Shown piece after piece: positions 18,828 to 25,198 of a stretch of 40,723 nucleotides of DNA. The DNA is from Candidatus Zhuqueibacterota bacterium. Its GTDB lineage: Bacteria > Zhuqueibacterota > Zhuqueibacteria > Thermofontimicrobiales > Thermofontimicrobiaceae. The number at the start of each line of letters is the position of its first letter. Position 1 is the stretch's first letter. The translations under genes were made by a program, and so were the position numbers. The DNA lies in NCBI GenBank assembly GCA_016783825.1, contig JADHVV010000014.1, positions 1 through 40,723 of the forward strand, read 5' to 3'. Below the pieces are notes generated by a model. The model did no database searches and had not been told where the DNA came from. It worked only from the letters and a program-made list of their open reading frames with translations.

Positions 18828-19217
18828 ATGGGTGAGATGAAAATATTAGTAAAAAATGCACGGTTAAGCAGCAAAGAAAAAAAACAAAACATTTTGTTGG
18901 ATCAACGCTTTATAGCGCTTTTGATTCAGCAGAACTTATTCGTCATTCTTAATTCGACTCAAAACCTCGTATGGTACATTTTACTCTTTCATACCAATTT
19001 TTTTGATCAGTTACTGGTGAATTCTCTTAATCCCGGGGAGCATGATGAAGAGAATTGGGATGAGAATGACTTGGATGATGAAGATGAGTGGGAAGATGAT
19101 GATGATTTGGAAGATGACGATCTCGATTGGGAGCCGGATGATGACGAATTAGATGATGAAGATGAGTGGGATGAAGACGATGGAATAGACATGGAAGATG
19201 AAGAAGAGTGGAATTGA
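18828..19217 (+). CDS. Hypothetical protein with extremely acidic repetitive tail
   Basis: This 129-residue protein is not recognised. The ATG at 18828 has GAGG 5 nt upstream; an alternative ATG is 9 nt further on. Residues 1-20 are basic, about 25-65 are hydrophobic (FIALLIQQNLFVILNS, NLVWYILLFHTNFFDQLLVNSL), and about 70-129 are nearly all Asp/Glu with spaced Trp. An imperfect duplication, LDDEDEWEDDDD and LDDEDEWDEDDG, reflects a DNA direct repeat (about 19073 and 19151). The acidic tail recalls polyanionic tails of nucleic-acid-mimicking proteins, but that is speculative. It converges on the FtsZ gene across a shared hairpin. The reading on the opposite strand is a serine-rich shadow. Confidence 0.45.
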   Translation: MGEMKILVKNARLSSKEKKQNILLDQRFIALLIQQNLFVILNSTQNLVWYILLFHTNFFDQLLVNSLNPGEHDEENWDENDLDDEDEWEDDDDLEDDDLDWEPDDDELDDEDEWDEDDGIDMEDEEEWN

Positions 19218-19349: not shown

Positions 19350-20987
19350 TCAATTAAGTTCCATTTTTAACTTTTTTTCCAGATCCATCTTTTCAATAAA
19401 TATTTCGTCATCAACCACCAATTTATTTTCCTGGTTTTTACCTTTTTCCATCTTAACTTCATGGCTGCCCTGATCAATGAGCAGGCTAAGCTCTTTGATG
19501 ATTTGATGACTATCATCAACAGCGACGGGGAATCCGGCTGCCATACCTTCCAGAATAGGCGGAATTTTATTAAATAATGGCAAAAATTGAGATGAAAATT
19601 TGATTTTGTTAATTATCAATTGATCAAAAATATCGTTTATAAATTTTACAAATTCCTCAAAATTCTTATTGGAATAAAGTTGAGCTGAACTCATTAATCC
19701 TTTGCAAGCATTTTTCAAATTACGAAATGTCTTATTGTCCACCTTGTTCCCTTCAAGGAATTTAATGGATTCTTTTAAAATATTCAAATCACCTTTAATT
19801 TCATCTTCAAAAATCTGGTTAAATACGTTTTTTGCTGGCGCACCCATTGATCCATTTTTTGCCGAATTCTTCATATTTTTATTTTTATCTCCGACTGTAC
19901 TTTTATAGGTTTCTTTATTCTTTTCGGCTATTTTTAATTCATTTTCAGTTGTTTCAGATTCAGGTGATTTATCCGCTAATTGTTGTTGTGAATTTAGCCC
20001 GGTAGCGATTACAAATATTTTAATCTTTCCTTTCATGTCTTTATTGATACTGGTGCCCCACAAAATTTTTGCATTACTATCCAATTTTTCAGCGATGGAA
20101 ACCATTATTTTTTGAGCTTCCCCCATAGACATACTCTCATCACCTTCAATATTGATTAATGTTTTTTGTGCGCCGGCAATATCAATATTTAATAATTGAT
20201 TATGCGTTGCTTTTTCAATTGCCTCCTGCACTTTTTCATTTGAATCACTTTCACCTATCCCTATCATGGCAATTTCACCATCTTTCATTACTGTTTTAAT
20301 ATCAGCAAAATCAAGATTTATCAATCCTTTATTCGCAACTAAACCTGTCACCGACCTCACAGCATTTACCAATACCTCATCAGTAAACTTAAAAGCGGCG
20401 CTTACGGGTAAGTCCGGCACCATGTCCAGAAGACGATCATTGTGAATGACAATAATTGTATCAGAATTCTTTCGCAAACGTTCTAACCCGCTGGTTGCAT
20501 TTTTTTCTTTTAAAGTGCCCTCATCGGAAAATGGCATTGTTACCACTGAGACTGTGAGCACATTAAGATTTCGCGCAATTTCTGCAATTACCGGGGCAGC
20601 GCCTGTCCCTGTTCCACCGCCAAGTCCGCAGGAAATAAAAACCATATCATTTCCCTGCAGCAACGATTTAATCTCCTCCTCACTTTCTTTTGCAGCTTGC
20701 TCCCCGATCTGGGGATCACCACCAGCGCCAAGTCCCTTGGTTACATTTTTCCCAATAATTAATTTGCCATCTGCCTTTGTGTGAAGCAAATCTTGTGCAT
20801 CGGTATTGATAGCAATCGTCTCAATCCCTTCAATTCCAGCGTCTGCCAGCCTGGTGATCGTATTATTTCCAGCGCCTCCGGTACCAATAACTTGTATTTT
20901 TGTCCGATGGATATTCAACAGTTCTTCAAGTTCTTCATCAGTTGTTTTTAATTTATGTTGATTAAGATTACTTTTCAAATCAGACAT
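19350..20987 (-). CDS. ftsZ: FtsZ GTPase with a long non-standard C-terminal domain
   Basis: FtsZ polymerises into the division ring. Residues about 28-333 are a full tubulin-like core: GTGGAGNN (35-42), the GTP signature GLGGGTGTGAAP (121-132), the base/phosphate segment SGLERLRKNSDTIIVIHND, and the catalytic T7 loop NLDFADIKTVM (224-234), so GTPase activity is expected. The total of 545 residues exceeds the usual 350-450. After a charged linker (about 335-385), residues 390-505 are a predicted helical bundle with an Hpt/CheA-P1-like pattern (FEDEIKGDLNILKESIKFL, then LKNACKGLMSSAQ), with Asn426 where phospho-His would be. The usual IPxFL-type tail is not evident. No ftsA is nearby. It may be the main FtsZ or a specialised paralogue. 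Confidence 0.93.
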   Translation of the reverse strand: MSDLKSNLNQHKLKTTDEELEELLNIHRTKIQVIGTGGAGNNTITRLADAGIEGIETIAINTDAQDLLHTKADGKLIIGKNVTKGLGAGGDPQIGEQAAKESEEEIKSLLQGNDMVFISCGLGGGTGTGAAPVIAEIARNLNVLTVSVVTMPFSDEGTLKEKNATSGLERLRKNSDTIIVIHNDRLLDMVPDLPVSAAFKFTDEVLVNAVRSVTGLVANKGLINLDFADIKTVMKDGEIAMIGIGESDSNEKVQEAIEKATHNQLLNIDIAGAQKTLINIEGDESMSMGEAQKIMVSIAEKLDSNAKILWGTSINKDMKGKIKIFVIATGLNSQQQLADKSPESETTENELKIAEKNKETYKSTVGDKNKNMKNSAKNGSMGAPAKNVFNQIFEDEIKGDLNILKESIKFLEGNKVDNKTFRNLKNACKGLMSSAQLYSNKNFEEFVKFINDIFDQLIINKIKFSSQFLPLFNKIPPILEGMAAGFPVAVDDSHQIIKELSLLIDQGSHEVKMEKGKNQENKLVVDDEIFIEKMDLEKKLKMELN

Positions 20988-21016
20988 CTGTTTTTCCTTT
21001 ATAAATATTTCACTGA

Positions 21017-22705
21017 CTATACGATAGAATTTTTCTCTAAAGCTTTGACTGTAAAGCTATAATATTTTTTCAATGAAAATAATATAGCCAATAATTTCGA
21101 CTCATGTTCTGCATTTTTCTGATCAAATATTTTTAGTAAGAGGATCCCTTCTTTTATTTTTTCTAACATCGTATTCGGCAAATGTTTACCCATTGCTTTC
21201 ATATTAATACAAATGGACTCGATCAATTCCGGTAAAATAAGAATTTTATTTAACTCACACTTTTTCGTTAAAATTTTTAAAGAAGAACTTGCCAATTCTA
21301 TGTCTTCCAAATATGTGCTGTCATCATTTTTTTCATCTACATTAGCGATTGCATTTAAAATTACCTGGAAAAACAAATGTGCTTCCCTTGAAAATGTATC
21401 AAGGGGATCAGGATTCGGAGCATTATCTTCTGTTTCAATTTTAACCAATCCATTTTTCCCGATTGGAACCTTTTTTGTTTGCTCCGTTGAGTTAGCTTTT
21501 ATTGATGAGTCAATCTCTTGAATTAAGTCCATTAAGCCTTCGTTTTCGTCACCAGGGATTTCAGATTGGAGAATATCTTTCTTTAATTTTTTTTCAGAGA
21601 AATTGACTTCTTTTTTTTCTTCATTTAATTTTGAATTTTCCAACGTCCTTGTTGAAGATTCATCTTCATCTGTTAATTTTTCTTCTTTATTTTTTTCAAT
21701 TGTATCTTTGAAAACTTGCTCCAGGATTTCATTTTCTAACTGGTTTTTTCCTTTTTCATTAATTCCTAATTGCAATAAAAAATCATCATGTTTTTTGAGA
21801 AATTTATTTAACTCTTGAGGCGTATGATGTGAAAAAACAAAATGTTCAATCGCTCTGTTAGCGGCAAGGATCAACTCAATGGCAGGTTGTATTTCTGATT
21901 GTACCATTTTTTTGACAGCTTTAATGAGCTGCAAAACTTTTTCCGAAATTATTACTAACTCATAGTTATTATGGAACTTTCCCAGTTCAATTAAAACATT
22001 AAAAACATCATAGCATTTTTTGATAAAATCAGGATGGGATGTTTGTTCAGTATCAGCTTCTGCGATGGGTCTTAAGGTGAAACGAATTTCTTCTTCAAAA
22101 AATTTTTGAAAAGCGACAACTTCCTCCTGTTGACCCGTAATGAATACCTCAGCCAATATTGATGTTTGATCTATTAATTCAGCTTTCTCCCCTTCTAATA
22201 AATAACTATTGGATTCAACTTCATTGATAAAATATTTTCCTAAATTTGTTTCATTACCGTTTGAGTCATCCAGTAATGATTTCAATTTTAGCTTTAAATT
22301 CAGGTACGATTGTAAAACGAAACGATTGTTTTTTTTTGAAAAAACCCGGATAAAATCTTCAAGGGTTTTTAATGCTAAATCCTGAATGATATTTTTTGTT
22401 TGATTATTATCTAAATCCGGAAGGTTAATTTTTGACAATTGAGATTTAATGCTTTCATAAAAGTTATTAAACTTTTCTGCATTACTAATTTCTTTAAATT
22501 CAGTTATCGGGTCGTTCGAATTTATAAGAAACTCGATAAGTTTGGATACGACGGCTGAAGTCGATTTATCAAATTGTTTTTTACCTGGTTCGCCACTTAG
22601 AGAGTTTCGTAAACAATAATAGAAATAACTTTCGCGGTGAAAAAATCGTTTAATTAATTCTTCATAAAACTGCTCGTTTTGAGAAATATTATTGTCAAAA
22701 CTCAT
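21017..22705 (-). CDS. Large helical hypothetical protein, Hpt-like C-terminus
   Basis: I do not recognise this 562-residue cytoplasmic protein. It is almost wholly alpha-helical and charged, with a low-complexity Lys/Glu/Ser region at about 330-435. Residues 438-527 (FSREAHLFFQVILNAI, then ELASSSLKILTKKCELNK) follow the hydrophobic pattern of Hpt/CheA-P1 helical bundles, but Ser occupies the position of the phosphorylated His. A stretch around 230-300 may be another such bundle. The gene is 29 bp upstream of ftsZ and 48 bp downstream of the lytic transglycosylase, so cotranscription is likely. The shared Hpt-like fold with the FtsZ tail suggests they bind each other. The Hpt assignment is by eye only. 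Confidence 0.7.
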   Translation of the reverse strand: MSFDNNISQNEQFYEELIKRFFHRESYFYYCLRNSLSGEPGKKQFDKSTSAVVSKLIEFLINSNDPITEFKEISNAEKFNNFYESIKSQLSKINLPDLDNNQTKNIIQDLALKTLEDFIRVFSKKNNRFVLQSYLNLKLKLKSLLDDSNGNETNLGKYFINEVESNSYLLEGEKAELIDQTSILAEVFITGQQEEVVAFQKFFEEEIRFTLRPIAEADTEQTSHPDFIKKCYDVFNVLIELGKFHNNYELVIISEKVLQLIKAVKKMVQSEIQPAIELILAANRAIEHFVFSHHTPQELNKFLKKHDDFLLQLGINEKGKNQLENEILEQVFKDTIEKNKEEKLTDEDESSTRTLENSKLNEEKKEVNFSEKKLKKDILQSEIPGDENEGLMDLIQEIDSSIKANSTEQTKKVPIGKNGLVKIETEDNAPNPDPLDTFSREAHLFFQVILNAIANVDEKNDDSTYLEDIELASSSLKILTKKCELNKILILPELIESICINMKAMGKHLPNTMLEKIKEGILLLKIFDQKNAEHESKLLAILFSLKKYYSFTVKALEKNSIV

Positions 22706-22753
22706 TGCTGCCCTCTAATTCCATGAAGGAAATGAACTAAATTCGTAAGCAAA

Positions 22754-23470
22754 CTATAAAATTCCTGCTTGGGTTTGATACTCAGCATATAATTTTAAAA
22801 TGCTTGGAACATACGTCCTGGTTTCTTCCCATAGCAATGTAAGGTCAGAATCATTTTTTCTCTTTTCTAACCACAATTTAGCCCGTCGTTCACCTCCATT
22901 GTAAGCAGCTAATCCACCATCAACTTCATACTGCTGAATCAAAGTAGATAAATACCTACACCCCAATCTAATATTATTAATAGGATTAAACAGTACCTTT
23001 TCCGGGGAGGTCCAGAAAACACCCTCTTCTGCTGCTAACTCCTGACCGGTTTCAGGCATGATCTGCATCAATCCTAAAGCGCCAACCGGAGAGACCACAT
23101 CAAACTTCCAGGTGCGCGCACTTTCGTGAGTTATTGTTGCACAAATCAAATCAACATTCAGGTTAGTATATTTCAAACACATTTCATGGATTTCATTTGC
23201 AACTTCCATCTTTTTCTCTGTTGGCATGTCTTTGTTAAAATTATTTATTATGCCAATAACCTTCTGCTTATTATACTGACGTGAATTCGCCAAATCCATA
23301 ATGCCGCGAACATCTGCCAAATTTGATTCGATTTCCTTCAAATTATTGTCCGGGTTATTTTTAAAATAATAGCGAAATGAAAAACTAACTGTTGAAATAA
23401 ATATAAAAACAAATAAACCCAATAAATAAATTGATCTAATCACCCTCCGATTCTTCATTTTCTGTCTCAT
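22754..23470 (-). CDS. SLT-type lytic transglycosylase, membrane-anchored
   Basis: This 238-residue enzyme cleaves peptidoglycan glycan strands in the periplasm. The start at 23470 has GGAGG 8 nt upstream. Residues about 12-33 form a single transmembrane anchor (IYLLGLFVFIFISTVSFSF). The Slt70-like domain (about 95-225) has the catalytic Glu116 in ATITHESAR, the GLMQIMPETG motif (133-142), NIRLGCRYLSTLI and AAYNGGERR (188-196), all typical of family 1 lytic transglycosylases (MltE/Slt group). It is the first gene of the apparent slt - unknown - ftsZ operon, which links wall cleavage with FtsZ. A response regulator lies upstream beyond a 1-kb repeat-rich gap. Confidence 0.92.
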   Translation of the reverse strand: MRQKMKNRRVIRSIYLLGLFVFIFISTVSFSFRYYFKNNPDNNLKEIESNLADVRGIMDLANSRQYNKQKVIGIINNFNKDMPTEKKMEVANEIHEMCLKYTNLNVDLICATITHESARTWKFDVVSPVGALGLMQIMPETGQELAAEEGVFWTSPEKVLFNPINNIRLGCRYLSTLIQQYEVDGGLAAYNGGERRAKLWLEKRKNDSDLTLLWEETRTYVPSILKLYAEYQTQAGIL

Positions 23471-24123
23471 CGTTCTATCCTCCGCAATGGATCAGCTTTC
23501 ACAGCTGCAATTTCATTAAATAACTCATTCGATCTATATTTTTTGTGTATCTTTAATTCTCCAAATATTTATGAGTTACATTTTTTTTTATGACATGATA
23601 AAACCGGTTATAATAGTAACAAATATAAAGCCAGACTTTATGATAAAATTAATATTTTTTATTTCCTGTTTTTTATAGTTATTTCCACCCACGAATAAGC
23701 AATTGATAATTTTCGAGTTAAGCGATTTTCTTGTTTTGTGTTTTTTTTAAATATGAAGAAATTTTCATTTGTATTTTTTAGATAATTTCTTTTTCATCAA
23801 AGATATTCTATCGCATAATTTCATGTTGTATGGCAAAATTCGGGTTCTTGATTGATATTATTAAAATTACAGCGAATAATTTGCTGCAAATTTGAATTCC
23901 GGTTTTGCCTAATTTTGATTCAATTGTTTTGGACTGATTCAATATTCAGGATAATCGTTGCCGGTTGCTGGATACCGCGATCCCTTCCAACATCGAGAAT
24001 CAAGCGGGACGTCCGCCATCCTGTTAGTCCGCCGTCTTTTTGGAGGATTTTTGGGCGGATATCCGGCATCGTATCAAATTCGTAAACGTTCACCAAGTGT
24101 CAGTGAAGATAAGACTGAAAAAT
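23471..24123. other. Upstream region of the slt-ftsZ operon, no gene seen
   Basis: The region is very AT-rich up to about 23930, with no convincing frame. From about 23955 to 24085 it becomes GC-richer, with GGACGTCCGCC- and GGATACC-type units and complementary segments (GCCGGTTGCTGGATA against TATCCGGCATCG). This is another nested inverted array, related to sequence near 17127-17148. The short frames here read through repeats. Confidence 0.5.
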
Positions 24124-24295
24124 CCCAACGGATGAGCAGCCAACGGATACAAATTAGAGCTTTTAATAAGCCTAAAAGATTGTCTTCATTTCGTGTCTGA
24201 TAGTGTTTTCGTTCAGTTACTCCTTATTTGGAGTCATTCTTAAAAAATTCCAAATTCACCGGTAGCTAAAATCCGTTGGCAGCTCATCCGTTGGG
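24124..24295. repeat. Palindromic element with 25-bp arms (CAACGGATGAGC type)
   Basis: The arms at 24124-24148 and 24271-24295 match at 24 of 25 positions as inverted repeats (the sequence CCAACGGATGAGC and its complement). They enclose about 122 bp with no coding potential. This is probably a dispersed intergenic element. The remaining 222 bp to 24517 show nothing recognisable. Confidence 0.75.
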
Positions 24296-24517
24296 TGTAA
24301 TTTTTCTTTTTCAACTGCACGATCTCATCCATTTTTGTTTAACAGGCGAACGGTTACTACAATCTTTAAAATGTATAATCTATCAACTTTGTTTTTTGGG
24401 TATGAATTTTTTTTCCGGAGAGTGTGCCTCAGGAGTGCAGAGAAAAAACATTTATCATTTTTTACGGGTTATCTGGGCTGGGTATTTGTGAGCCGAATAA
24501 AAATCCCGGTTAGTTGT

Positions 24518-25198
24518 TTAAACAGCTAATTGCTTATCCTGAATCAACATCTTCCAACCATAATAAATTGTTTTTTGAACCGGTTCATTACTTAAAACAA
24601 CATTGTAATTTATTTTTTTCCAGTTCAACACATTTATCAGCGCCAATTCTCCTTCAAATTCATCTGTTTTAGCATGAATTATTTCACCACCCTGAAAATG
24701 CAGGACACCTGATTTATTGACATTTTTTACTGTAACAAATCCATTAAACTTCTTTTGGAAATTCTTTTTTATTAATTCATCCAAAGTCAATTTTTCTTTT
24801 TTACTTCTTTTTTTAATTGATCTTTTCCGAAGTATATTACTGATCGTTTTTTTAAATTCCACCATTTCAAATGGCTTTTCAAAATAATAAATCCCGGTAT
24901 TTGGATTTGCTAAATTCTTTATTTCCGGTTTATTTAAAGATGACATAATAATAACCGGCACCTCCGGATTGTGTTTTTTAACATAATCCAACAAAACCAA
25001 ACCATTCGTACCAGGCATTTGAATATCGGAAATGACCAGGTTAAACTGAAGACGTTTGAGAACACTCAAAGCTTCTTCGCCCGAATTCAGTGAATAGAAT
25101 TTATAATCTTTGTACTGTTTTTGTAAATTTTTGGTTATACCCCACGTCAAACTCTCTTCGTCGTCAACCACCAATATTCTTTTTTCCCCTTGTTTCAT
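24518..25198 (-). CDS. Response regulator with REC and PATAN/DUF4388-like output domain
   Basis: In this 226-residue protein, residues about 6-122 form a REC domain: acidic pair VVDDEES (11-14), phospho-acceptor Asp58 (LVISDIQMPGTNG), Ser in IIMSS, and Lys in FEKPF. A basic linker (RKRSIKKRSKKEK) leads to a C-terminal domain with GVLHFQGGEIIHAKTDEFEGELALINVLNWKKINYNVV. This matches the DUF4388/PATAN pattern (gene product with G-x-I-x-x-A, then G-E-x-A-L and a Trp-containing helix). Such domains are thought to mediate protein-protein signalling rather than DNA binding. It is encoded upstream of, and in the same direction as, the slt-ftsZ group but 1 kb away. No kinase is adjacent. Confidence 0.82.
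   Translation of the reverse strand: MKQGEKRILVVDDEESLTWGITKNLQKQYKDYKFYSLNSGEEALSVLKRLQFNLVISDIQMPGTNGLVLLDYVKKHNPEVPVIIMSSLNKPEIKNLANPNTGIYYFEKPFEMVEFKKTISNILRKRSIKKRSKKEKLTLDELIKKNFQKKFNGFVTVKNVNKSGVLHFQGGEIIHAKTDEFEGELALINVLNWKKINYNVVLSNEPVQKTIYYGWKMLIQDKQLAV

Follow-up and report, generated by a model that had tools for sequence, protein, structure and literature searches.

What might a bacterium do with a second FtsZ that carries about 200 extra C-terminal residues and stands apart from ftsA? Such a gene lies in the window analysed here, a stretch of 40 723 nucleotides from a Candidatus Zhuqueibacterota genome (assembly GCA_016783825.1, contig JADHVV010000014.1). In this window slt (22754–23470), a gene encoding a 562-residue protein (21017–22705) and ftsZ (19350–20987) follow one another in tandem on the minus strand, with gaps of 48 bp between the first two and 29 bp between the second and ftsZ. 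The original prediction took these genes for an operon headed by slt, a division or wall-remodelling module in which histidine-less Hpt-like domains dock FtsZ to a signalling or hydrolase partner. The three genes do form a set, whose order is kept in 21 of the 23 loci of relatives that have the 562-residue protein (hereafter the partner), and the Hpt-like domains do lack histidine. A tail of this kind, a signalling-protein domain whose active histidine is lost, hints that a signalling pathway may act on the cell skeleton directly.

A second FtsZ with a histidine-less Hpt-like tail

The window FtsZ, 545 residues long, matches Pfam Tubulin (PF00091) and FtsZ_C (PF12327) only and passes the NCBIfam ftsZ cut-off. 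Its GTPase core (residues 27–335; 19983–20909, minus strand) keeps the T4 (GGGTGTG) and T7 (NLDFAD) motifs that had been reported as intact, and across 41 tailed FtsZ sequences the T7 motif (NxDFAD) is universal and the T4 signature (GGGTG[ST]G) present in 40.

Pfam searches with the window proteins alone gave SLT for the transglycosylase, no Hpt in FtsZ and no family at all in the partner; it was orthologues and profiles that revealed the Hpt kinship. An AlphaFold2 model of the FtsZ tail has helices at residues 388–412, 418–437, 441–458, 468–484 and 487–508, mostly with pLDDT > 90, and its best PDB matches by Foldseek are CheA P1 domains (E 1.6e-4 to 2.8e-3, TM to target at most 0.78). By sequence, a tail profile searched against the PDB found the P1 domain of CheA from E. 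coli/Salmonella at E 6e-7, along roughly 100 residues, and from Thermotoga at E 6e-6. Pfam Hpt matched 13 of 21 aligned tailed-FtsZ orthologues (best E 8e-6) and passed the Pfam threshold in FtsZ proteins from two additional genomes (frames of 617 and 586 residues). From these models and profiles we are confident that residues 388–508 (19464–19826, minus strand), close to the stretch of about 390–505 first proposed, fold as a CheA-P1/Hpt bundle; of its helices, H1 and H2 show the strongest conservation. At E 1e-3, Pfam Hpt had no match in the window's own genome (83% complete) and one to nine in the six related genomes tested.

The phospho-accepting histidine of Hpt domains occurs in none of the 41 tails, where the site holds Ser (17), Lys (8), Thr (6), Ala (3), Glu (2) and, once each, Met, Gly, Asn, Leu and Ile; the idea that some orthologues retain it was rejected on this count. 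In the window the residue is Lys429 (codon 19701–19703, minus strand), as judged from an HMM alignment to CheA P1, and not Asn426, three residues earlier, which the original prediction had named. Because this histidine is gone, the usual phosphate relay is impossible for the FtsZ tail.

The extreme C-terminus differs as well. The canonical peptide P.F[LMI][RK], which binds FtsA, SepF or ZipA, is found in none of the 41 tailed FtsZ, yet it is present in the genome's canonical FtsZ, whose gene follows ftsA on another contig, where the check proposed at the outset found it. In place of this peptide, alignment of orthologues with an entropy and motif check picked out residues 530–545 (19353–19400, minus strand), where another peptide is conserved, YxxxLF-like or, in near relatives of the window, DLxxxLKMxLN. 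SepF, which anchors FtsZ in archaea (PMC8178401), was looked for in 82 phylum genomes and found in none, while control genomes gave matches. Immediately downstream of ftsZ, an open reading frame on the other strand (18828–19217, plus strand) has a long acidic, low-complexity C-terminus rich in Asp, Glu and Trp.

Gene context and the candidate docking partner

Tailed FtsZ occurs in 50 of the 82 phylum genomes (records titled KSB1/Caldithrix), alongside a canonical FtsZ in nearly all; the two are told apart by score (420–833 vs 340–393 bits). In the other 32 genomes no match to it was seen, and it is missing from families f4, f6, f9 and f11. Family f4 has, besides canonical FtsZ, a distant FtsZ-like protein of 511–521 residues (103–109 bits; G012:C2, G017:C18, G022:C184).

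The commonest gene partner of tailed ftsZ is a phosphorylatable response regulator. In the window this gene (24518–25198, minus strand) lies 1047 bp upstream of the three-gene set on the same strand and encodes a REC domain (Pfam REC 2e-18) together with a weak DUF4388 match; the phosphorylatable Asp and the conserved Lys of the receiver (DD, D, K) are kept in 28 aligned orthologues. Of 34 loci, 28 have a REC regulator with both residues upstream of ftsZ and in the same orientation; the six without a matching regulator are loci of families f5 and f10 and one f8 locus.

Three kinds of context recur. In the class of the window and a second group, the order is regulator, ParA, slt, partner, ftsZ, and a kinase and an NtrC-type regulator are frequently near by; in these relatives slt thus does not head the operon, as had been proposed for the window, since the response regulator and ParA sit upstream of it. 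In families f18–f23 the order is kinase, kinase, NtrC-type regulator, REC, ftsZ, with REC 4–136 bp ahead of ftsZ or overlapping it and with no ParA, slt or partner. In family f10 a longer tailed ftsZ stands alone; its product (L192, L193, L202, L074, L097) has 711–908 residues with an extended linker, and these loci have no linked regulator, slt or partner, so f10 tailed FtsZ must work without a linked regulator. In seven loci of classes other than the window's, which lack slt, ParA and partner, the REC gene is thus directly next to ftsZ (4–136 bp or overlapping), and most of these regulators are REC-only, with no DNA-binding domain. That REC adjoins FtsZ in lineages without the other three genes argues that the signalling link is the core of the system and slt an accessory.

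The slt product of the window (238 residues, Pfam SLT E 1.5e-19) has a predicted N-terminal membrane anchor and a catalytic Glu in the motif HESA. There is neither an intact ParA gene nor a linked kinase in the window, and the roughly 1 kb at 23471–24517, where relatives carry ParA, has no long open reading frame. A weak 10-residue tblastn match (23916–23945, minus strand; E 0.24), at the expected place and on the expected strand, is perhaps the C-terminal remnant of a decayed ParA gene; the genome's closest ParA relative, 39% identical, lies on a different contig.

The partner is built from three parts. Its C-terminal bundle (residues 434–561; 21023–21406, minus strand) matches CheA P1 by profile (E 9e-9) and the FtsZ tail by hhalign (E 2e-11), and an AlphaFold2 model of the whole protein has CheA P1 as its best Foldseek match (TM to target 0.77, E only 0.03). 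As the original prediction had it, Ser takes the histidine position (Ser474), and none of 21 partner C-terminal domains has His there. A second bundle in the middle (residues ~195–345; 21671–22123, minus strand), which that prediction had missed, aligns with the FtsZ tail (hhalign E 5e-10) and with CheA P1 (E 1.8e-5) and, judged by eye, also lacks the histidine. The N-terminal helical domain (residues 1–150; 22256–22705, minus strand) is conserved with no convincing PDB match, weak hits to TFIIS-like helices being taken as chance. Many loci have a third bundle gene, on the downstream side of ftsZ, whose product carries one or two more pseudo-Hpt-like bundles (e.g. L027 69–1160, L029 1997–3208, L183 8916–9770); none was seen in the window.

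Hpt domains bind receivers, and an Hpt fold without its histidine can still bind, with no transfer of phosphate; Hpt-like bundles bind non-receiver partners too. Gene linkage makes the REC response regulator of the same cluster the likely candidate for docking on the FtsZ tail, in place of the broader signalling or hydrolase partner proposed earlier. At its smallest the system has kinase genes, REC and tailed FtsZ next to one another, and from this we infer control of the filament through REC docked on the tail. A two-component-controlled filament system of the tubulin family, whose regulator docks on the pseudo-Hpt tail of FtsZ, is a reading to which we give about an even chance. Against it count the six loci without a matching regulator and, in the window, the lost ParA and the missing linked kinase; nor do neighbouring genes prove a complex.

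At its core would stand the second, archaeal FtsZ1-type protein, which retained its GTPase, lost the canonical anchoring peptide and gained a His-less, CheA-P1-like C-terminal domain. This domain would relay no phosphate by the usual route, while retaining the receiver-binding Hpt fold. A histidine kinase, whose gene is near by in relatives, would phosphorylate the linked response regulator, which would then dock on the FtsZ tail and alter the assembly, bundling or location of the filament. Later additions in most lineages may have been a tandem pseudo-Hpt scaffold, a ParA-type ATPase and the membrane-anchored lytic transglycosylase, which together could serve positioning and the local trimming or remodelling of the wall, with ordinary division left to canonical FtsZ and FtsA. 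The scaffold would work like FimL, a protein whose two Hpt-like domains carry Gln where the acceptor histidines would be (PMC3019171) and to which the CheY-like regulator PilG is recruited (PMC10519157).

The pseudo-Hpt bundles could, on the other hand, be adaptors that bind one another or another partner, the FtsZ tail pairing with the partner or with the downstream bundle protein in a scaffold free of receiver control; the regulator would then act in transcription only or bind elsewhere. That three homologous bundle proteins adjoin in many loci fits this idea, and the high conservation of H1 and H2 in the FtsZ tail would suit a bundle–bundle interface as well. However, the seven other-class loci place REC beside a tailed FtsZ with neither partner nor downstream bundle gene, and most of the regulators there have no DNA-binding domain. 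We consider the adaptor explanation rather unlikely, though a serious competitor.

Tailed FtsZ might also be an auxiliary division protein that joins or conditionally replaces the canonical Z ring, with slt as the enzyme of daughter separation. A lytic transglycosylase together with a ParA-type ATPase (that of one relative matches Pfam MipZ at 1.9e-11) resembles division-site systems, and archaea divide with FtsZ1 and FtsZ2. Such a role is nonetheless improbable, to about the same degree: tailed FtsZ uniformly lacks the division peptide that the canonical protein of the same genome has kept, the phylum's genomes have no SepF, 32 of them do without a tailed match, and tailed ftsZ is linked to signalling genes rather than division genes.

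Archaeal affinity and origin of the GTPase domain

The kind of GTPase domain involved had been overlooked by the original prediction. The best PDB relative of the window FtsZ is FtsZ1 of M. jannaschii (380 bits, bacterial proteins reaching about 280), to which it is 52% identical, against 43% to its own genome's canonical FtsZ; for the canonical protein it is B. subtilis FtsZ, at 382 bits, with 289 for M. jannaschii FtsZ1. The best 80 matches to the window FtsZ in named genomes are mostly archaeal, the bacterial records among them being titled KSB1, Caldithrix, Deferribacteres and Bacteroidota, with no other bacterial phylum. The two records titled Bacteroidota and Deferribacteres (L045 and L047) carry a tailed FtsZ near-identical or close to that of this phylum, and their titles are probably misclassifications.

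Wider comparisons, all biased in that the archaeal sequences were chosen by similarity to the query, gave tailed FtsZ a mean identity of 56% to archaeal FtsZ1, 46% to FtsZ2 and 44% to canonical FtsZ, with 23 columns at 90% conservation common to tailed FtsZ and FtsZ1 alone and two to tailed and canonical FtsZ alone. In a quick tree subject to the same bias, tailed FtsZ formed a single clade (97), beside an archaeal FtsZ1 gene (99) and nested in FtsZ1. The flanks of that archaeal gene, read by eye, are archaeal (e.g. Rad50/Mre11-like and ribosomal genes). Likelihood mapping, likewise affected by the choice of sequences, joined tailed FtsZ to FtsZ1 in 71% of quartets and to canonical FtsZ in 24% (5% other); among quartets containing the window FtsZ, 188 of 204 (92%) joined archaeal FtsZ1. 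The archaeal genomes of L055 and L048 (G064, G076) each gave six FtsZ-superfamily matches, unusually many for 1.4–1.6 Mb.

The closest sequence relatives of tailed FtsZ are archaeal FtsZ1 proteins. How this came about is a separate matter, as tailed FtsZ could be an ancient bacterial paralogue with an ancestral, archaeal-like sequence. AU tests did not reject a single clade of canonical and tailed FtsZ (p 0.43 and 0.68 in two data sets), in the second data set that tree even outscored the free search, and the minority of quartets and the phylum-wide occurrence speak in its favour. The majority of quartets, the identities and shared columns, the nesting within FtsZ1 and the restricted set of bacteria among the best matches all speak for archaea instead, and we judge the paralogue to be an outside but real prospect. 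Because the quartets favour transfer while the AU tests keep the alternative, inter-domain transfer from archaea is likely, not proven. An archaeal contig or chimera in the metagenome bin, for which one could cite only the fragmented assembly (260 contigs, 82.8% complete), is hardly credible and was rejected on conserved gene context: dozens of assemblies made independently of one another show the same arrangement, some of them on contigs of 0.3–1.0 Mb, the archaeal matches have no tail and the neighbouring genes of the window are bacterial.

Putting transfer and receiver docking together, we tentatively propose, at somewhat less than even confidence, that an archaeal FtsZ1 entered the ancestor of this bacterial phylum and was fused to a His-less Hpt domain, so that a phosphorylated regulator could bind and steer the filament directly as an immediate two-component output. 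The job would be one outside division, beside the normal FtsZ, for example local remodelling of wall or membrane.

Wider meaning and comparison with known systems

A 2023 survey of FtsZ evolution saw no notable transfer of ftsZ between archaea and bacteria (PMC9871819). If true, an archaeal-type FtsZ clade present across a bacterial phylum would be a clear exception. A fusion of FtsZ to a receiver-docking domain would, if true, enable a sensor kinase to influence a cytoskeletal filament through a single protein contact, with no transcriptional step. The phylum would also offer a natural test of what FtsZ1 can do where SepF is absent, and of what keeps a second FtsZ from mingling with the division ring. 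In the open-access literature searched, with few subscription journals or preprints, no earlier account was found of KSB1 FtsZ or of any FtsZ bearing an Hpt-like tail.

Among known proteins, archaeal FtsZ1 (M. jannaschii FtsZ1, PDB 1FSZ/1W58) is the nearest to the window FtsZ in its GTPase core and shares the signature CGLGGGTGTG. The window protein differs in its walled bacterial host, its pseudo-Hpt tail and a phylum without SepF, and tailed ftsZ is surrounded by signalling genes where archaeal FtsZ1 has translation genes. The genome's own canonical FtsZ (ftsAZ, L002) has the same Tubulin/FtsZ fold and catalytic motifs, but the window FtsZ departs from it in sequence, in its missing C-terminal peptide, in its extra residues and in having no linkage to ftsA. 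Systems of the PomXYZ/MipZ type position FtsZ, and a ParA-like ATPase linked to FtsZ recalls them; the window and several classes have no ParA, however, and no PomX- or PomY-like proteins were identified. FtsZl1 and FtsZl2 are likewise second FtsZ-superfamily proteins beside canonical FtsZ, thought to act outside division, with a highly diverged core and linkage to vWA genes or to none (Makarova and Koonin, 2010; PMC2875224), whereas the FtsZ core of the tailed protein is complete and its gene context is a two-component one.

The tail resembles CheA P1/Hpt (PF01627; PDB 1I5N, 1TQG) in its helical-bundle fold and end-to-end profile match, and differs in that the phospho-histidine is missing from all 41 tails and the bundle is fused to FtsZ or set in tandem scaffolds. 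The partner recalls FimL and the N-terminus of ChpA from Pseudomonas, with two Hpt-like domains without acceptor histidine (PMC3019171, PMC10519157), but it has an extra N-terminal domain and its links are with FtsZ and slt instead of pili; the likeness drawn here is one of working. All the parts of the system belong to familiar kinds, and what is new is how they are combined.
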